A stretch of DNA of 20,900 bases. It comes from a virus. Below are positions 10,039-20,900 of the stretch, one piece after another. The position numbers and the translations under genes were made by a program. The stretch lies in the IMG/VR virus record IMGVR_UViG_3300030333_001638, positions 1 to 20,900 of that record. One strand, given 5' to 3'. How positions within the stretch are numbered: position 1 is the first letter of the stretch; the number at the start of each line of letters is the position of its first letter. The notes under the pieces were generated by a model. That model was not told the DNA's origin. It made no database searches and saw only the letters and a list, made by a program, of their open reading frames with translations.

Positions 10039-13000
10039 ATGGCAAAACTCAGTAAGTACACTCATGGTAAAACTAAAGGAACTTCTGATCGTCAGAGTTC
10101 TGGAAGACTTTCATCGGTTGGTGGTGAAACAAGTACACCAATAAAAGAATTTAAGATAACAGGAAGTACAAGTCCAAGTCAGCCAATAAGACCTAGTACA
10201 AATGATTACTTTCAGTCTCAAGCTTTAAGTTATCCTCAAGCACCTACAATTAAAAGTTTTTCTGAAGCACCCGCAAATACTCAAAATTTAAAGAATTTAA
10301 TTGATGATCTAGGCCAAGTCAATACAAAACTTCAACAGTTTATTCCTGACTTTTGGAACTTTCAGAAGGCAATGGATACAGCTGCTAGGAAAAAAGCAGA
10401 GAAAAAAGCAGCAGAATCTAATACTCAATTAAATGCAGCTAAGAATGCGTTAGAGAAAAAAGCTGAGACAGATGAGAATGCTTCTGATTCTTATGGAATT
10501 TTCTCTTCAATGGATCAGAGAGTTGAGAGAGAACTTGTAATTGTAAATGCAAAGAATAAAGGATTAGCACTTATTAGTGGATTTAATGATGTAGCACTTG
10601 ATGATTATCATGCTTCTTATTCAGATGAAAGCAGAATAGATGAAAATTCAGGAGAGATAATTCCTATTAATCCATCTACTGATGAATGGTCGACTTATGC
10701 AACTAATTATTTTAAAAATAATATTGGAAATACTGCTGCATATTTAGAACTACAACCTCAAATTCAAGCAGCTATATATAGTGCAAGACGTTCAGTATCA
10801 AAAGAACATGCTACATATAAAGATAATAAAGCAAATAATACTTTTAAAACATCAGTTGGAAGCATAATTATAGAAGCAAGCACTGCATCACAAGAAAAAT
10901 TAACAGGAGTATATGGTACAGAATGGACAACTGACCAAGAAGTTGATGATCCAGGTACAAAAGTTCAAATAAATCCACCTTTAAGTTTTACTGGTGCTAT
11001 TAATGATTTCAATCAAAAGTCAGGTACATCAATAAAGAATTATCAGAAACAAGTAGAACCAAATCAGTTACTTACAACTATTGCTAATGGAGTAATACTT
11101 AATTCTAATACAGAGAATCTTGATGATAATGCTGATATAGCTTTAACTCTTTTAAAGAATACAAGAATAGGAGCAGGTAAAGGACAATTATTATCAGAGA
11201 TAGTCGGAGGAGAACAAGTTCTTGAAAACATGTGGGAACTTGCTATTGGAGAAAAGAGAAATGAAGCACAAAGAATAAGGGATGGTAATAGTAAAAATAC
11301 AGCAGCAAATGCTGCACGAATAGATTATGCAAATATCAATCAACAAGATGCTGATTTAACTACACCAGAGATTGATCCTATACTTAATGGTCAAAGTCAA
11401 AGGACTGTCGTTGTTGATGGCGTAGAATATTATATTGATTCAGGCCCAAATGCCATTAATCTTTCAGGTGTAGTTGGTAAGATAGATCAATTATTATTTG
11501 ATGCTGATAAGAAATTTTCAACAGGAATAGAAGCCTATGAATATAGACAAGAGTTATTAAGATTAAGAAGACAATTCTTAGAAAGTCGTACCGCTGGACA
11601 AAGAGAAGAAAATTATAACTGGTTGAAAAAACGAATTACTGAAAATCCAGATCAAGCAACTTTAAATAAAAGTCTTTTGAATTATTTCTTTAGGACAGAT
11701 AGGATATCAAGAGATCAATATGGACTATTAGAACCAGAGATTAATATTAATTATACGAACGAGAAGAGTATCTTTAATGATGAGATGAATGGCAAGAATG
11801 GTAGTGATGGAAAGATTGCAACTGCTACTGGATATATAGAAGCATATTATCGAGATAAGACTGGCATGAGTATGAAGAGTTTCGATGAATGGCCTACAGA
11901 AGATAAAAATGCTTATTTAGCAAGAGTTGCAAAATTCAAGAGAGAGGCTAATGCAATTTTCTTATTACCAATTTCACTAGAGGAAAGACTTGAAAAATTA
12001 AATGAATTAACGAGTGATTTGGATACTGAAATGAAGAATGCAAGTGCAAAGTTAAAAGAGAACAAAACAGGACTCAGTGAAAACAATGATACTCAAGTTG
12101 GTACTAATAAATCTGTAACTAAAGATAATAATGAAGGAGATAATAATAACAACGAAGGATCTACTCAATTTACCTATCAAACTCCAAAAGAATTAATTGC
12201 AAGTTTAGACGGAGGATTAAATGGTAGAGGAAACGATCAGCAAAACAGTGCTTTAGCAACAGCAGCTAGAAGTGAAACTTTATATTCAACTCCAATACTT
12301 GTTCAGCAATTAAATCAATTTGAAGACCTAGCATTAGTTATAAAGAAATCAGGGAACAGACCTCCTAACATCTGGGGATGGATTCAAGGAGAGGTGCTTA
12401 AGCCTGTTCGTGGGCCAAGAGCTTTAAGTTATACAAGAGAGATGCCCGCTATTCTTGGCAGGATTAATAAAGATATGTCAGCTAAAGAGTTTTATTTAAG
12501 TCAGATGAAATTACATGGTCTTCCTATTACAGAAAGACATCACGAGATTTTAGATCTTATTTTCCCTGACAAACGTAATTCTCAATTTAAGTTTGAACCT
12601 AATACAACAGTTCAGATGGAAGCAGGTAATGAGAATGCTTTTAATCTCGAAAATTTATCTGGACAAGAAATAACACAAACAGCTTCGACAGATTTAACAG
12701 GTCTTTTAAATGAAGGGCCGCCACCATTGCCACCAATTATAAACATTAAAAAAGTACCTACAAATTTAACAGGACAACAAGAAGCATCATTTGATCGTAC
12801 TTGGGAAGTTGATACACCTAAAGAACAGAGGCAGTCAGAATTTGGTAATGCTTTATATCAAGCAGGGTTTAAAGATGAAGAAGAATTAACAACAATGATT
12901 GCCATCGCAATGGCAGAAACAAACATTCGCAGTATCAGAAATCATACAACTCTAAATGATAGAGATGAAAGTTATGGAGTCCTTCAAATAAATATGCTGG

Positions 13001-13302
13001 ACAATGAAGCAACAAACTTTATGGGACGATGGAGAGAGAAAAAATGGCCTTGGTTAAAGAATAGAAATGATTTGTTTGATATAAATCAAAATGCAAAAGC
13101 TGCATATGATATTTTCAAAAACGAACCTTGGTTAAATGATGGTAAAGAAGGATTATTTAATGCTTGGTCTAGTTATGAAAATGGCAAACATATTGAATTT
13201 ATGGATGAAGCAAGAAAGATAGCAAAACAGATTATCTTAAATCAGAGTAAGCCTAGATACGAGGAATCCAGTACCATAGGTGGAAGGTCTAATATTGCGT
13301 AG
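10039..13302 (+). CDS. gp15-like internal virion protein with C-terminal lytic-transglycosylase-like domain
   Basis: A 1087-residue ejection protein in the place of T7 gp15 (747 residues). Residues 1-100 are Ser/Thr-rich and flexible. About 100-690 are helical, with Ala/Lys/Asn-rich repeat-like helices such as AARKKAEKKAAESN (about 115-128). An Asn-rich linker lies near 690-715, and a Pro-rich linker EGPPPLPPI near 890-900. The last ~160 residues look like a soluble lytic transglycosylase (lysozyme fold): MIAIAMAETN with candidate catalytic Glu960, then DRDESYGVLQINML (residues 976-989), matching the family's E-S-x-G-x-x-Q-I-N pattern, then ARKIAKQIILN. In T7 this activity is at the N-terminus of gp16, so its location here is unusual. 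It would cut peptidoglycan during DNA ejection. The gp15 assignment of the N-terminal part rests on gene order more than on motifs. Confidence 0.82.
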   Translation: MAKLSKYTHGKTKGTSDRQSSGRLSSVGGETSTPIKEFKITGSTSPSQPIRPSTNDYFQSQALSYPQAPTIKSFSEAPANTQNLKNLIDDLGQVNTKLQQFIPDFWNFQKAMDTAARKKAEKKAAESNTQLNAAKNALEKKAETDENASDSYGIFSSMDQRVERELVIVNAKNKGLALISGFNDVALDDYHASYSDESRIDENSGEIIPINPSTDEWSTYATNYFKNNIGNTAAYLELQPQIQAAIYSARRSVSKEHATYKDNKANNTFKTSVGSIIIEASTASQEKLTGVYGTEWTTDQEVDDPGTKVQINPPLSFTGAINDFNQKSGTSIKNYQKQVEPNQLLTTIANGVILNSNTENLDDNADIALTLLKNTRIGAGKGQLLSEIVGGEQVLENMWELAIGEKRNEAQRIRDGNSKNTAANAARIDYANINQQDADLTTPEIDPILNGQSQRTVVVDGVEYYIDSGPNAINLSGVVGKIDQLLFDADKKFSTGIEAYEYRQELLRLRRQFLESRTAGQREENYNWLKKRITENPDQATLNKSLLNYFFRTDRISRDQYGLLEPEININYTNEKSIFNDEMNGKNGSDGKIATATGYIEAYYRDKTGMSMKSFDEWPTEDKNAYLARVAKFKREANAIFLLPISLEERLEKLNELTSDLDTEMKNASAKLKENKTGLSENNDTQVGTNKSVTKDNNEGDNNNNEGSTQFTYQTPKELIASLDGGLNGRGNDQQNSALATAARSETLYSTPILVQQLNQFEDLALVIKKSGNRPPNIWGWIQGEVLKPVRGPRALSYTREMPAILGRINKDMSAKEFYLSQMKLHGLPITERHHEILDLIFPDKRNSQFKFEPNTTVQMEAGNENAFNLENLSGQEITQTASTDLTGLLNEGPPPLPPIINIKKVPTNLTGQQEASFDRTWEVDTPKEQRQSEFGNALYQAGFKDEEELTTMIAIAMAETNIRSIRNHTTLNDRDESYGVLQINMLDNEATNFMGRWREKKWPWLKNRNDLFDINQNAKAAYDIFKNEPWLNDGKEGLFNAWSSYENGKHIEFMDEARKIAKQIILNQSKPRYEESSTIGGRSNIA

Positions 13303-13307
13303 AGCTA

Positions 13308-16300
13308 ATGTCGTATCAACTTGTTATTGATCCTGAGACTAAGGAAGAAAAATATGAATGGGTAGACAGAACTGAGTCGTCAGCTGACCAGCAGCGTAGA
13401 GAAATCAAGGAACGTAGAGATAATGCAGAACCTTTTGACCTTAAGGAAGCTGCAATAGGTACAGCAAAAGCTGTTCCTCGCATGTTTATCAATGCAGGAA
13501 TTAATGCTGTTCAGGAAGGTAGCGACACAATTAGAGATATTGGTGGATATATGGGTATAGGTGAAGGAACTACCTTTGCAGAGCCTGACAAGCCAATACT
13601 CGGATTAGGTGATTGGAAACCAAAGCCATTAGAAAGCAGTGGAATAGCTGAAGATATAGGAACAGGAATACTTCAGTTTGGTCTTGAATGGGTGATGCTC
13701 AGTAAGGCATTACGCATTGCAAACTGGGGATTAAAAGCAACTCCTTTAGCAAAACCACTTGCTTATGCAGGAGCTAAGGCAAAGAAAATAGAAAAAGCAG
13801 GTTTAAATCTGATAGGCAAATCTCCTGTTGCTCCAAGGACTTTGCAAGATCTTACAAAGTTTGGAATTAAGACAGCAACATCAACTAGTCCTAAAGCTAC
13901 TATTGTTGATTTTGCTGGATTCGATCAATATGAAGGTCGCCTATATGACTTAGCTGCTAATAGCAATACTTGGTTTAATAATGTTCAACATATTCCTCTT
14001 ATTAATCAGCTTGCTACAAATCCAGAAGATGAAGGATTAAGAGGTCGTTTTAAACAGGCTTTAGAAGGAGTTTTTATTGATCTTGGTATTGGTGGTGTTA
14101 TATCTGCAAGATCAGCAGCAAAAGTAATTGATTCAAGAATTAAATTAAATACTTTTCTGAATACTGCAAAAGATAGTCCTGATTATGCACGAGTTAGGCA
14201 AGAAGCAATACAAGCAGGAGCAGCATTAGAGCAGGTTCCTGAAATCAAACAGGCTCTTAGTGGAGATAGAAAACTCGCAAGAATGGATCGAGCAGCTTTT
14301 GATAAGTCGATGGCTCATCTGCCACCAGCTGAGAGAGCAAAGCTTTGGAAAGAGATGCGAACAAGAAGAGGTTTAGTAGCAGAGAAAAGAGGAGTTAAAA
14401 CTGTTACTGGTGATCTTGATTCAATTAGACAACAGATTGAAGAACTAGGCCCAGAACCACCAAAGCCAGGTAAAGGTCAAAGTATCGTTAACGGAAAACA
14501 TACTCCAGCTTATAAGCGTTGGAATAAATGGAATAGAACTAATAAGTCTTTACAAGCACGATTACAAGAATTAGAAAATACTATTGATCCGACAAATGAT
14601 GCTTATAGCCGAGAATTAGCAGAACGGAGAATGGATGATGAGACTTATTCCTACGAACCTGGCGATCCAGAATATAGAGATGTAGCATCTCGAAACGCTA
14701 AAGAAATGGCTGATGCCATTGAATCAGGAGATGTTCCTTACTGGTGGGGGCCAGGTGATCCTGCTTGGAAAGCTAAGGATGTTGAGTTTTGGGGAGATAC
14801 ACGTAAAAGAAAAGTAGATGAAAATGTAGCGGCAATGGTAATGGAAGGTAGATCTGTTAGTGAAATTATTGAAAATCTAAAAGCTAATAGACCTCAGAGA
14901 ATACCTGGAGAAGCAACCTTCCCATCAATAGCAGATGCAAAAGGAATTAGTCTTGCAAACTATAGAGGTGTTGACAAAATAAAAGCTAAGTTAAGAAGTT
15001 TAGTTGGACAAGAATTTAAGTTCACAGATCCATTAACAAAAGAAGTATCTGTTCATCGTTATACAAGAGATGATTATGCACCTGTATATGAACTTATAGA
15101 ATTAATGGGAGAAGAATTGTTTGATGATGTTGCATTAAGTCTTAAACAAATTGATGCAGAAGGTAGTTTTAATTTTGCAAGAAAAATCATAGAAATACAC
15201 AGAAGAACAATTTCAACAGGGCAATTTAGCGATACTATGGTACATGAATTATGGCATAGTTTATCTCGTTATTTACCTGCGAAAGATTTAAAAAGATATG
15301 CTAAAGAGTGGAAAGGTGCAAGAGAAAGATATCTCAAAGATATGAGAAAAAAATTACTTAAAGATCCTCAAGGCAAAGATGGAAAGGTTTTAAGTGCTAA
15401 GCAAGTTCAAAAGTTAAGGGATGGACTTGTATTGCGAGGTAAAGAATTAGTAGAAGAAATGAGATTAAAAATGAAAGAAGAACTTGGAGCTGAACCAGCG
15501 AGACAAGATGTTCTGGATGCTTTTGCGAAAACTGCTGAAAGCAAAAGAATGCAGAAAACTTTTGATGAATTTGAAACTCACCGTCTAGCTCAAGCAGAAT
15601 TAGATGGTTTTAGAAATGGCAAATATACGAATGATAATTATAGATTTGTTTCGATGGATGAATATTTTGCAGAGATGTTAAAAGATCAATTCTTCTTACA
15701 TATAAACAAGAAGGCACTTGCACCTGAAGGAAGTTTTAGAAGACTTCTTCAAGATGTTGGTATTTTCTTTAAAGAACTTTGGGTGCAAATTCATGCAGCT
15801 TTAGGTGGTCCTAATACTGAAAAAATATTTAATGATTATTTGAAAGGAAGGAATAAGAAGAAGTTAAGAAAATATTCGATGGAAACTTATTTTGAGCCTG
15901 GATTTACAGAAGCAGCAGAGGCAACTGCAATGGTTGATGCTTTAGATATTCTTATTGCTGGTGGAAAAACTGAAGTTGTAGAGAGATCAGCTTTTGACGA
16001 TATCTTATTTGGAGGTGGAATTAGAACTTCTGTAGATGCTCGAATTAAATATACTCCTGATGAATTAGCAGATCTTTCTGACTTCATCAGAAGTTTTGAA
16101 GATCCTACTTACGAGAAGGTTTTAAAGAAACTTGATGATTATCTATACCCAGAGAAAGGAGATAAAGCAGCTCCTTATCCTATTAATGAAAAGGATGCTG
16201 AACGAATAGATGATCTATTAGACATTCTTGAAGAACAAGATCCCAAAGCCTATGAAGAATGGGATTGGATGAGAGAAGAGTCTCTGGATTCAAAAGCAAG

Positions 16301-19300
16301 AACAGATGCAGCAGATGAAGCTCGCTTCCAAGAGGAATCAAGACTCTATGAAGAACAGCAAGCTAGACAAGAAGCAGGTGACGATCCTCGTGGTTTCTAT
16401 GAAGAGGATGCAAGAGCTTTTGATGAAGCACAAGCTAGAAGAACTCAAGAACCTGCTGGTGGAAAGAGAACTAGAGAAGAAGTCGAAGGTGCTGCTGAAG
16501 ATGTTTTAGAAGCATTCCAAAAAGTACAAGATGGTGATGCAGATATGCTTGATACTCCTGCCTTATGGCAAGACGTAACTACGCTTAGATCTCCAAAAGG
16601 TAGAGACTATTACCCAGGTTCAAGTGCTCCAGGTGGAGACTTTGAAAAAGTCCTTGATGCCTTTAGTCATCGTTTCGATAGGATCATTGAGACTGGAATG
16701 CCTTCTATTAGTAGTAGAAGAATTGCTCAGGAGTTAGCAGATACTTTCAGGAAGCAAGGTATTAATGTCGATGAAATCTTGTATGATGAAAGCATTGCAG
16801 GAGCAACAGAAATCTTCTCTAATAATGTTGAGAATATTACTAACCTTTTAAAGATAAGATTTGGTCTTAACTTTACTGGTGGAGAAGCTGCTAAGTGGGC
16901 TATTAAAGCAGATAATGCTATTAATAATCCTTCTATTAATAGAGAAGAAGCGTTAGGAGAAATGATAAGACATTTAGAAACTGCATTGCAGTTCTCTAGG
17001 GTTTATCAAATATGGACAAGAAGTGCAGGTCAATTACTTCAATCAGCTCAGGCACAAATCAAAGGAGAAGGTATTACTGAAACTCTGAAGAGACAGAATT
17101 TAGGTTTCGATAAAGTTGCTGCATTGAGTGAAGCATCAAAAGTATCATCACAAGTTCTTGTCTCTAATCTTCCAGAAGAATTTTTAACTGCATTAAGAAC
17201 AGGTGAATGGACACCTAGAGCAGAAGCTTTTGCATATCAATTAACAATGCTTGCAAAAGATGCAGATGTTGAACATGGGTTAAAGACTATTCAGGATTTA
17301 TTAGGTGCAAATGAGAAAGCAAAAGGCATGAGGAAGAGGCCAGAAGTAACTGACTTCGAGAAAATCTCTAAAGGATTAAGTGTCTATTACGTTAATAATC
17401 TTTTATCTGCTGCAAAAACATGGATGGTTCAAGGTTTTGGTCTTGCAAGAACAATGGCTGAACCTGCTTTTATGTCAACTGGTGCTCTTATAAGCAGAAA
17501 TCCATCACTACATAGAGCAAGACTTGCCTTATTGCAATACAACTATATAGTTAGATCTTTTTATGGCTCATTAAAACTTGGGAAGAAAGCATGGGATATA
17601 GGTCAATCTTTATATGATCCAAAAATCCGTACAGCTGCTTGGGCTGGTGATGCTGCTGGAGATGTTGATATAAATACTTCTTATGCACAGAATCGTGCTT
17701 ATCAAATGGATGATCCTCATCCTTCTTACGACTTAAATACAAGTCCTTTTGTGAAAGAAGCTAGTGAAAATCCTGGTCTTTTCTCAGCACATACTTTATG
17801 GAAGTTAAACACTTGGAATATAAGAGGTCAGCTTGCTTTAGATACCTTGACCAAGAGTCTGTCTGGTAATGCTTTAGCTCATGTTGTTGGAGTAGAAGAA
17901 GGTTTAATGATGGGTAAAAGAAAAGGCTTAAAAGGTGCTGAATTAAGTAGTTATGCAGAGCAATGGGCTGATGCAAAAGTTGAGTTTTATACCTTCGATG
18001 CAATCATTAATGGGGAAACAATTGCAGATGCAATTATGAAAGATGAGACTGCATTGCAAATAGGAAGAATCCTGACTTTTACAGATCAAACTAGGGCAAG
18101 GATGCCAGGTAGAACTTATGCCTTTGGAGAAGAATTAGCTAAGGCTAGAGGGATGGTAGATGAAGGAGAGATAGATGAATTCGCAAAGGCATATAGAGCT
18201 GGAGAATTAGAAGGAGCACAAAAGAAATGGAATAGATTTATTAGAGGTGCTGATGGTGTTGTTCAGAATGCAAAGAACTTAGAAGATTTGCCTATGCCAG
18301 GTGAATTGACTCCAACTCTTACATCTGGTTGGTCGCAAATTCCTCAAGCTTGGGGCAAGTTACAAGCAAGAAGAGAAGGAGCAATATATACCTTTATCCA
18401 ACCATTCAATAGATCACCTGGAGATATTACAAAGCAATGGATCAGAATGATTCCAGGTTTAAATATGACAGTCGATACTTTCTATAGAGATCTATTTAAT
18501 GAGAATGCTTATTTGCGTAATAGGTGGAAAACAGAAGTAGCAGTAGGAACAACAGTATCAGGATTATTTGCAGCAACTGTTTTAAACAATGAAGAGTTTC
18601 CTATTGAGTTCACAGGTTATGGGCCAAATAATCCAACGATGAGGAAAGAATGGACAGATGCAGAAAGACCTCCTTTATCTTGGAGGACAAGAGGAAAGGA
18701 TAAAGATGGTAATCCTGTTTATGGTAAGTGGCGTTCTTATAGAGCATTTGAACCAGCTGCAACATTTATCGCAGGATTAGCTGATTACAAGATGTTATAT
18801 AACGATCTTTCACAAGATCAGAAAGATGATCTGATTGCAGGGTTCTCTGTATCTTTAGCAGCACAAGTCATGGTAGGAAGATATAACGCTACTTATTACA
18901 AGGGTATTACTGAATTATTAGATGCTGTTGCTTCTGTAATTCCTGGTGTTCAGGGTATTACTAAAAGAGAATTAGAAGCTTCAGAAAGAAATAAATTATC
19001 CAGATATTTCCAGCGATTTGTTACTAACTTCATTCCAGAATCAGGACGACTAAGAGAAGTAAGTAGAGCAATGGATAGATATAAGAGAACAATTGATTCA
19101 GGTGTTAATCCTATTGTTGCTTTTGATGAAGCAGATGAAGGATTAGTTAAACAAAGAGATGAATTAGGTCGTGTTATATATCTTAAGAAAGCAGATGCAG
19201 AAGGAGAAGATCCAAATCCTCTATTGAATTTTGCAGCTAATTACTTTAGGCAACAGTTAGATGAGATCAAGAATACAATTCCTGGGTTCTCTGAGACATT

Positions 19301-20030
19301 ACCTGAAAGAATAAATTGGGTTACTGGCTTACCAGTTAGGAATGCTGGATTCTTAGGTAGTAATGATCTTCCATTAGATGATGCTCCTTGGTTATCAAGA
19401 CTTACAGGTGCTTACTTTGGAACATTGAAAGGTGCAGTTAGTGAATTTGGAGTAGGTGCTAAAGGTCATTCATTTGATCCACGATTGAAATCTCAGAAGA
19501 GTAAAGGAGTAGCAACTTATGAATATAAAGCTTCTATTGTTAATGATGAGATGATAAAAATGAATAGAGCAGGTGCAGTATTCCCTCCTCCAAGACCTAC
19601 TGATTTCGGTAAAGGAATTAGATTAAGCCCTCCTGCATTTAGAAAATATAAGGAATATATCTACACAGTTAAACTTCCTGCTTATGGTGGAAAGACTTTG
19701 ACAGAAGCTTTATACAGCAGAATTACAGCTAAAGATTATCAAGCCAATCAAGATTATGTGGTTCATCCTATAGATGGAACAGATGGGTTAAAAGGTTTTA
19801 AGAGATTTCCTGAATTGCGTAAAATTATTAATGACTATAAACATGCAGCTAAAGAAGAATTTAGAAAAGATGGCAGTAATGAGTACAGGATGGAGGTTAC
19901 ACTAATAGAAAATAGACAAAGAGAAAGTGAAAGGATCGAAGAGAATACAAGAAGAACGCAGATATCTTTAGAGGGAGACGGTAGTATGGAACTAAATGCT
20001 CAAGACTTTGCAGCCTCAATTAACAGGTAA
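13308..20030 (+). CDS. Giant gp16-like internal virion protein with zincin metallopeptidase motif
   Basis: A 2240-residue protein in the place of T7 gp16 (1318 residues), the largest ejected core protein. The N-terminal part has Gly/Ala-rich amphipathic helices and DFAGFDQYEGRLYDL (from residue 201), a motif I recall from large internal proteins of other marine phages. Residues 646-650 are HELWH, a classical HExxH zinc-peptidase motif. Downstream, DEYFAEM (784-790) offers Glu785 or Glu789 as third ligand, separated by a long charged helical insert. About 975-1075 is a very acidic, Glu/Arg/Ala-rich linker. From ~1080 to the end the sequence looks like the gp16 core: NNLLSAAKTWMVQGFG (about 1363-1378), a hydrophobic VAVGTTVSGLFAATVL (about 1743-1758), and KWRSYRAFEPAATFIAGLAD. 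No transglycosylase domain is seen here. The peptidase could act on envelope proteins, cell-wall peptides or the protein itself; this is inference. Confidence 0.85.
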   Translation: MSYQLVIDPETKEEKYEWVDRTESSADQQRREIKERRDNAEPFDLKEAAIGTAKAVPRMFINAGINAVQEGSDTIRDIGGYMGIGEGTTFAEPDKPILGLGDWKPKPLESSGIAEDIGTGILQFGLEWVMLSKALRIANWGLKATPLAKPLAYAGAKAKKIEKAGLNLIGKSPVAPRTLQDLTKFGIKTATSTSPKATIVDFAGFDQYEGRLYDLAANSNTWFNNVQHIPLINQLATNPEDEGLRGRFKQALEGVFIDLGIGGVISARSAAKVIDSRIKLNTFLNTAKDSPDYARVRQEAIQAGAALEQVPEIKQALSGDRKLARMDRAAFDKSMAHLPPAERAKLWKEMRTRRGLVAEKRGVKTVTGDLDSIRQQIEELGPEPPKPGKGQSIVNGKHTPAYKRWNKWNRTNKSLQARLQELENTIDPTNDAYSRELAERRMDDETYSYEPGDPEYRDVASRNAKEMADAIESGDVPYWWGPGDPAWKAKDVEFWGDTRKRKVDENVAAMVMEGRSVSEIIENLKANRPQRIPGEATFPSIADAKGISLANYRGVDKIKAKLRSLVGQEFKFTDPLTKEVSVHRYTRDDYAPVYELIELMGEELFDDVALSLKQIDAEGSFNFARKIIEIHRRTISTGQFSDTMVHELWHSLSRYLPAKDLKRYAKEWKGARERYLKDMRKKLLKDPQGKDGKVLSAKQVQKLRDGLVLRGKELVEEMRLKMKEELGAEPARQDVLDAFAKTAESKRMQKTFDEFETHRLAQAELDGFRNGKYTNDNYRFVSMDEYFAEMLKDQFFLHINKKALAPEGSFRRLLQDVGIFFKELWVQIHAALGGPNTEKIFNDYLKGRNKKKLRKYSMETYFEPGFTEAAEATAMVDALDILIAGGKTEVVERSAFDDILFGGGIRTSVDARIKYTPDELADLSDFIRSFEDPTYEKVLKKLDDYLYPEKGDKAAPYPINEKDAERIDDLLDILEEQDPKAYEEWDWMREESLDSKARTDAADEARFQEESRLYEEQQARQEAGDDPRGFYEEDARAFDEAQARRTQEPAGGKRTREEVEGAAEDVLEAFQKVQDGDADMLDTPALWQDVTTLRSPKGRDYYPGSSAPGGDFEKVLDAFSHRFDRIIETGMPSISSRRIAQELADTFRKQGINVDEILYDESIAGATEIFSNNVENITNLLKIRFGLNFTGGEAAKWAIKADNAINNPSINREEALGEMIRHLETALQFSRVYQIWTRSAGQLLQSAQAQIKGEGITETLKRQNLGFDKVAALSEASKVSSQVLVSNLPEEFLTALRTGEWTPRAEAFAYQLTMLAKDADVEHGLKTIQDLLGANEKAKGMRKRPEVTDFEKISKGLSVYYVNNLLSAAKTWMVQGFGLARTMAEPAFMSTGALISRNPSLHRARLALLQYNYIVRSFYGSLKLGKKAWDIGQSLYDPKIRTAAWAGDAAGDVDINTSYAQNRAYQMDDPHPSYDLNTSPFVKEASENPGLFSAHTLWKLNTWNIRGQLALDTLTKSLSGNALAHVVGVEEGLMMGKRKGLKGAELSSYAEQWADAKVEFYTFDAIINGETIADAIMKDETALQIGRILTFTDQTRARMPGRTYAFGEELAKARGMVDEGEIDEFAKAYRAGELEGAQKKWNRFIRGADGVVQNAKNLEDLPMPGELTPTLTSGWSQIPQAWGKLQARREGAIYTFIQPFNRSPGDITKQWIRMIPGLNMTVDTFYRDLFNENAYLRNRWKTEVAVGTTVSGLFAATVLNNEEFPIEFTGYGPNNPTMRKEWTDAERPPLSWRTRGKDKDGNPVYGKWRSYRAFEPAATFIAGLADYKMLYNDLSQDQKDDLIAGFSVSLAAQVMVGRYNATYYKGITELLDAVASVIPGVQGITKRELEASERNKLSRYFQRFVTNFIPESGRLREVSRAMDRYKRTIDSGVNPIVAFDEADEGLVKQRDELGRVIYLKKADAEGEDPNPLLNFAANYFRQQLDEIKNTIPGFSETLPERINWVTGLPVRNAGFLGSNDLPLDDAPWLSRLTGAYFGTLKGAVSEFGVGAKGHSFDPRLKSQKSKGVATYEYKASIVNDEMIKMNRAGAVFPPPRPTDFGKGIRLSPPAFRKYKEYIYTVKLPAYGGKTLTEALYSRITAKDYQANQDYVVHPIDGTDGLKGFKRFPELRKIINDYKHAAKEEFRKDGSNEYRMEVTLIENRQRESERIEENTRRTQISLEGDGSMELNAQDFAASINR

Positions 20031-20037
20031 CTGATCT

Positions 20038-20900
20038 ATGGCCTACGCATTCGACACTTACTCAGGGAATGGGTCGCAAACCGATTTCAATATCACGTTT
20101 CCTTATATCAATGAGGATCATGTAAAGGTATATGTCAACTATGTAAATACCTCATTCACCTTTGAGCCGAACAAGTCAACAGTCCGTTTGGCGAGTGCTC
20201 CTGACAATGGAGTAGTTGTAGAAGTCAGAAGAATTACACCTCTAACAGGAGTTCTTGTTGACTATGCAGATGGTTCAACTCTTACAGCAGGAGACTTAGA
20301 TACTAGTAACTTACAGCATTTATATAACGCTCAAGAATTAGATGATATTCAGAATAAAGCAATATCCCTATCTCCTACTACTGGCTTACCTACAGCTAAT
20401 AACAGAAAGATTACTGAAGTTGCTGATCCAACAGCAGCACAGGATGCAGCGACAAAGAACTATGTAGATACAACAACTCAACCAGTAGATGCAGAGCTAA
20501 CAGAACTCGCAACAATGAGTTCAGGGACAGCTTCTTCTCTTGCTGATCTGACTGGTACAGAAGTCCAGATCCTAGATGGAGCAACAGTTACCACTAACGA
20601 ATTAAATATTCTCGATGGAGTCACCGCTACAGCAGCAGAAATTAATTACGTCGATGGTGTTACTTCTAATGTTCAGACTCAGCTAGATGCAAAGCAGCCA
20701 TTAGATGCAGAGTTAACAGAACTAGCAACTATGAGTTCTGATACAGCCGCTGCATTGGCTGATCTAACTCAAGCTGAAGTACAGATCCTAGATGGAGCAA
20801 CTCTTTCTACTGATGAACTTAATTTTGTTGATGGTGTTACTTCAGCATTACAAACACAGTTAGATGCCAAGCAACCACTAGATGCTGACTTAACTAATCT
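20038..20900 (+). CDS. Tail fibre protein, N-terminal part (3' end outside window)
   Basis: T7 gp17-type tail fibre, the receptor-binding appendage. The first ~130 residues are the conserved tail-attachment domain: AFDTYSGNGSQTDFNITFPY, INEDHVKVYVNYV, VEVRRITPLTGVLVDYADGS and LDTSNLQHLYNAQELDD, all close in pattern to the T7 gp17 N-terminus. Then comes ITEVADPTAAQDAATKNYVD, a segment found in many fibres before the shaft. From about residue 150 the protein becomes repetitive, built of PLDAELTELATMSS-type segments and 13-residue units with a central DG. The visible part is 287 complete codons plus 2 bases and is open to the window end. The start ATG follows the giant gene by 7 nt. Receptor-binding and any chaperone domain would lie beyond the window. 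Confidence 0.93.
   Translation, partial: MAYAFDTYSGNGSQTDFNITFPYINEDHVKVYVNYVNTSFTFEPNKSTVRLASAPDNGVVVEVRRITPLTGVLVDYADGSTLTAGDLDTSNLQHLYNAQELDDIQNKAISLSPTTGLPTANNRKITEVADPTAAQDAATKNYVDTTTQPVDAELTELATMSSGTASSLADLTGTEVQILDGATVTTNELNILDGVTATAAEINYVDGVTSNVQTQLDAKQPLDAELTELATMSSDTAAALADLTQAEVQILDGATLSTDELNFVDGVTSALQTQLDAKQPLDADLTN
20485..20900 (+). repeat. Modular shaft repeats of the tail fibre
   Basis: A segment encoding VDAELTELATMSS or its close copies starts at 20485, 20701 and (diverged) 20878, so the first unit is 216 nt (72 residues) and the second 177 nt (59 residues). Inside each unit is a run of 13-residue blocks with a central Asp-Gly: three blocks at 20569-20685 and two at 20785-20862. 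The 39-nt difference is exactly one block. The array continues past the window end. Confidence 0.88.

Follow-up and report, generated by a model that had tools for sequence, protein, structure and literature searches.

A giant, probable internal virion protein encoded among the late genes of a T7-like phage

The window analyzed here, 20,900 bases that make up the whole of IMG/VR record IMGVR_UViG_3300030333_001638, holds the late-gene module of an uncultured T7-like ocean phage, with genes for the terminase, portal, scaffold, capsid, and tail tube proteins, for proteins in the gp13 and gp14 positions, for a 1,087-amino-acid (aa) protein and a giant protein of 2,240 aa, and the start of a tail-fiber-like gene. 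Gene names given without a cited match were taken from position and sequence. Among cultured phages, its closest relatives are those of Prochlorococcus named P-SCSP1 (77% identity in the capsid protein and 62% in the portal protein). A small ORF starting with MCGGGGGGGGG (positions 1467 to 1766) lies between the terminase and portal genes, and the tail-fiber-like start (positions 20038 to 20898) carries repeats of the type AELTELATMSS...LDGATxTTxELNxLDGVT.

The 2,240-aa ORF sits directly downstream of the gp13-, gp14-, and gp15-position genes, a large protein among phage late structural genes, which is a setting described for phage-type polyvalent proteins. Gene position together with the N- and C-terminal modules (Table 1) places it among the T7 gp16-like proteins, and it is probably packaged in the virion and ejected with the DNA. 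The lytic transglycosylase found at the N terminus of T7 gp16 is absent from the 2,240-aa protein. A lysozyme-like domain lies near the C terminus of the preceding gp15-position protein; in T7 it is at the N terminus of the gp16-like protein, and P-SCSP1u is arranged like the window.

Table 1. Features of the giant ORF and of the end of the preceding gene (positions in the window)
Feature	Position	Strand	Basis
SLT_3 domain, lysozyme-like, close to the C-terminal end of the gp15-position protein (ORF 10039-13302, 1087 aa)	12856..13119	+	E = 7e-8
Giant internal virion (ejection) protein, 2240 aa, T7 gp16/IVP-D equivalent	13308..20030	+	Position and modules
N-terminal module, about residues 60-330, common to internal virion proteins of S-TIP28, CRP-804, and P-SCSP1u	13485..14297	+	Profile E = 9e-14, 1e-9, and 4e-7
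Zincin-type domain, about residues 585-862	15060..15893	+	Alignment of relatives, conservation, profile match
Predicted strand region ahead of the catalytic helix, F605-I631; D607, V608, and G619 invariant	15120..15200	+	Inferred from pattern, not from AF2 models
HELWH, residues 646-650; predicted zinc ligands H646 and H650, predicted general base E647	15243..15257	+	Conservation; aligns with HELVH (N4) and HEAVH (phiKMV)
Charged helical insert, about residues 671-764, fast-evolving, variable length	15318..15599	+	Alignment, AF2, dN/dS
NYR, residues 777-779, near-invariant, ahead of the second helix	15636..15644	+	Alignment
DEYFAE, residues 784-789; E785 predicted third zinc ligand, E789 kept only within the clade	15657..15674	+	Alignment, profile match
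C-terminal module, about residues 1480-2240, also present in internal virion proteins that have no zincin	17745..20027	+	CRP-804 E = 1e-81, S-TIP28 8e-45, P-SCSP1u 1.5e-36

Conservation of the HELWH and DEYFAE motifs

An earlier note on this DNA had paired HELWH at residues 646 to 650 with DEYFAEM at residues 784 to 790, separated by a charged helical insert, as a credible zincin site. Both motifs are located in the 2,240-aa ORF (the second at window positions 15657 to 15677), and the stretch between them is modeled by AlphaFold as helices (pLDDT 82 to 95) and is the variable part, with a length of 57 to 150 residues in 21 nonredundant members of the family. Because an HExxH motif arose by chance in 1.25% of shuffles of the 2,240-aa protein, the motif alone is unusual, not decisive, and the weight falls on its conservation.

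Relatives of the domain were recovered at 78 loci in a first IMG/VR scan and at no fewer than 109 in a second, the domain lying mostly inside giant ORFs of 1,400 to 2,700 aa. HELWH is present in 78/78 loci of the first scan and the E-x-x-A/T/S-E motif in all but two, both cut off by the contig end; where the domain is not ended by a contig edge, both motifs are intact (76/76 loci). Since TMVHELW was one of the search patterns of that scan, alongside a separate strand pattern, this conservation was possibly a search artifact, and the loci without TMVHELW were therefore counted separately. Both motifs proved intact in all 31 of them (TMIHELW, VMIHELW, TAVHELW, and PMIHELW variants), which were retrievable only via the strand pattern. 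Conservation counts from the 109 loci of the second scan are left out because its search pattern requires HELW.

The earlier note had made its reading depend on H646, E647, and H650 being kept in homologs, and these residues, together with E785 and E789, are invariant in 21/21 nonredundant relatives. Also invariant in these members are I597, D607, V608, G619, L648, W649, L652, R654, L656, P657, and D660 and, further downstream, N777, Y778, R779, F787, D793, and G833; almost all of the invariant positions are kept in a larger set (n = 37). Purifying selection acts on the two motif halves, where dN/dS, calculated from four close relatives, is the lowest of the whole protein (0.10 to 0.26 overall, with 0.16 to 0.26 around HELWH and 0.11 to 0.13 around DEYFAE); values are 0.25 to 0.38 in the flanks and C-terminal module and 0.14 to 0.74 in the insert.

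Profile kinship to other phage HExxH domains

Profile comparison by hhalign with a set that includes phiKMV gp37, LUZ19, N4-like virion RNA polymerases (vRNAPs), the DarB-like protein of Serratia phage Parlo, and others gave a probability of 80 to 84% and scores of 42 to 44, against shuffle maxima of 18 to 21, with the alignment in register from the strand through HExxH and the E-x-x-A helix into the helix that follows. With HExxH masked, the whole set still scored 27.2 against a null maximum of 15.6; the similarity to N4 alone fell to shuffle level upon masking, so that the superfamily assignment rests on the whole set. Against N4-like vRNAP domains the probability was 37 to 74%, depending on the alignment used, and direct comparisons with single N4 or P-SCSP1u sequences were too weak, so alignments were needed. 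Only the H, E, H, and E columns are invariant across phiKMV gp37, the N4-like vRNAPs, the Parlo DarB-like protein, and P-SCSP1u. E785, invariant in the clade, lines up with the Glu that is invariant in phiKMV and N4, and it was preferred as the candidate third ligand over E789, which is conserved in neither phage. Sub-threshold Pfam matches to zincins (ATLF, SprT-like) fall on the motif region of three relatives (L082, L081, and L025). Profile comparison groups the domain with those of phiKMV gp37 and N4 vRNAP in one broad superfamily, the metallopeptidases of polyvalent proteins.

Each of these systems resembles the window protein in part. In phiKMV (Autographiviridae), gp37 is the gp16 equivalent of a T7-like phage (PMC8954989) and has HEAVH at residue 423 (H423 and H427), then a helical insert, and then E496 on an E-x-x-A helix; unlike the window protein, it has 1,337 aa, lacks the NYR and DExFAE signature, and carries W at the E789 equivalent, and its N- and C-modules are hardly detectable by the profiles of the window family. 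Chain G of PDB 9sfn matches the entire gp37 sequence; a literature search found no paper describing that entry. The database label of phiKMV gp37 (L188:7567-11580), copied across many phiKMV-like genomes, is "internal virion protein with endolysin domain" despite the zincin-like HEAVH/E496 domain. The C1 domain of N4 vRNAP (Schitoviridae; PDB 9pnr) likewise belongs to an ejected giant and presents a strand, HELVH, a helical insert, an NEFMAW helix, and a following helix, with H2228, H2232, and E2310 as the counterparts of the predicted ligands, whereas the protein is fused to an RNA polymerase and its similarity is not significant with HExxH masked.

In 2017, Iyer et al. described zincin-like metallopeptidase domains within giant proteins that phages deliver (PMC5512222). 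Their polyvalent zincins, which include phage P1 DdrB, share with the window domain an HEXXH helix, a second Glu helix, a variable insert, and a location inside large phage-delivered proteins from late genes; the paper has 12 clades. The window domain differs in giving no match to PF18818. A more distant likeness is found in a 2,895-aa protein (L006) encoded beside phage genes on a Rhizobiales metagenome-assembled genome contig, with TMVHELW followed by H and the subsequent helices (profile E = 8e-7). With DnaJ, RuvA_C, and LPD38 domains it is a typical polyvalent protein, but its identity is about 20% and it lacks the ejection modules of the window family.

The P-SCSP1u protein of 2,563 aa (ULF50148.1) shares the N- and C-modules with the window protein and has its own HESFH at residue 1204, in a region not convincingly alignable to the window clade or to the phiKMV/N4 set. 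It is annotated as a hypothetical protein (L109:10961-18652, OM416779.1, PSCSP1u_00023) and carries the internal virion modules (E values in Table 1), despite a report that the internal core protein is missing from the MPP-C core genome (PMC9860041). A weak ParB-like stretch (NCBIfam E = 0.004) is also present in it, and visual inspection alone hints at an ART-like stretch.

A modular domain without a database family

The internal virion proteins of Synechococcus phage S-TIP28 and Roseobacter phage CRP-804, the latter annotated as internal virion protein D, have both flanking modules and no HExxH at all, and conversely, another locus (L084) matches the window protein only in the zincin domain by profile comparison. 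The domain therefore behaves as a cassette in a gp16-like ejection protein, and these alignments indicate a module inserted between the N- and C-terminal modules. The L084 protein (L084:4701-12812; 2,704 aa, on contigs of 43 to 70 kb) belongs to the same zincin clade and has a ParB-like stretch recognized by eye (DGHQRHDLA...IAEGSGTAIDAAKV).

For the clade, none of the family models in Pfam, PHROGs, or NCBIfam scored above its cutoff; PF18818 (MPTase-PolyVal) gave no match at E values up to 10 and none in the Pfam scans. Pfam matches such as those to XRCC4, RST, and EspA were sub-threshold and were rejected as coiled-coil or chance. No close match to the domain was found by tblastn in 50,697 phage records, and none in cultured phages. 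The clade is without a name in these three databases and is a widespread new branch of a known theme. The AlphaFold model of the window domain has a mean pLDDT of 67, with the highest values in the insert, and that of L082, an insert-poor relative, has a mean of 61; both are of low confidence and do not form the expected beta-sheet. Foldseek searches with them against PDB and viral models returned helical noise only and no zincin. In these low-confidence models, HELWH and E785 lie on two helices, as a zincin needs.

Discussion

Motifs, conservation, and profile match support a zincin-type domain in the internal virion protein, as the earlier note had proposed. Its further suggestion, that this is a candidate for an undescribed activity, is not supported, since zincin-like metallopeptidases in phage-delivered giant proteins are published (PMC5512222), the N4 virion RNA polymerase carries one (PMC12633501), and phiKMV gp37 has an HExxH/E domain that aligns with that of the window protein. 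On the sequence evidence, the domain is likely a zinc endopeptidase module of the polyvalent type, housed in a T7-like internal virion protein. Zn2+ would be bound by H646, H650, and E785, and water activated by E647, the predicted general base; metal binding and catalysis, like the packaging and ejection of the protein, are inferred. This view of fold and activity is much stronger than any view of the job that the enzyme performs.

For that job, Iyer et al. listed processing before packaging (P1 DdrB), processing inside the head or the host cell, and an attack on proteins of the host (PMC5512222). We tentatively favor, at somewhat less than even probability, the processing of ejected phage proteins over a host target and, after that, a structural role. 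During or after ejection, the domain would cut ejected phage polypeptides in cis or in trans, which may free or remodel modules of the 2,240-residue chain once past the tail. N4 vRNAP is reported to be packaged unprocessed despite such a domain (PMC5512222); the case for self-cleavage before packaging is weaker for it, and cutting after ejection seems the likelier course.

The main rival, and the preference of the earlier note, is that the same zincin acts as an effector peptidase, delivered to the periplasm or cytoplasm to cut a host envelope, transcription, or defense protein early in infection. Iyer et al. proposed this role for some polyvalent metallopeptidases (PMC5512222); the module is inserted and widespread and occurs in giant proteins that are otherwise unrelated. 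T7-like relatives do without it, a pattern more in keeping with an accessory weapon than with a maturation step that is essential. However, domain-profile scans detected no further effector domain in the 2,240-aa protein, and we regard the effector reading as rather unlikely. Less probable again is its most specific form, in which a distinct ocean-wide clade (HELWHxLxRxLP ... NYR ... DExFAE) of virion-delivered metallopeptidases, a cassette gained by T7-like phages, would cut a specific host envelope or defense protein at the onset of infection.

A domain kept for its metal-bound structure or its fold, serving core packing, folding for ejection, or contact with DNA or the channel without proteolysis, ranks below these and seems improbable. 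It agrees with the reported packaging of N4 vRNAP in unprocessed form, for which the metallopeptidase region is needed for encapsidation (PMC5512222), and with the accessible text of the N4 structure paper, where the HExxH motif in vRNAP is noted and given no activity (PMC12633501). A purely structural site would, however, be expected to lose its base sometimes, and E647 is invariant alongside the ligands, including in the 31 loci retrieved independently of HELWH. An HExxH that arose by chance in a helical ejection protein lacking a metal site, compatible with the plain helices and lack of a recognizable fold in the low-confidence models and with the occurrence of the motif in shuffled sequences, is already contradicted by the invariance, the selection, and the profile match through both motifs, and is very improbable.

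HExxH domains are frequent in proteins ejected with phage DNA, and to these the present analysis adds a large uncatalogued marine clade, linked to phiKMV gp37 and N4 vRNAP, for both of which structures have been solved and tractable hosts exist. Sister proteins that have the same flanking modules and no zincin offer a natural comparison, and what injected phage peptidases cut becomes a question that a single point mutation in a laboratory phage can address.
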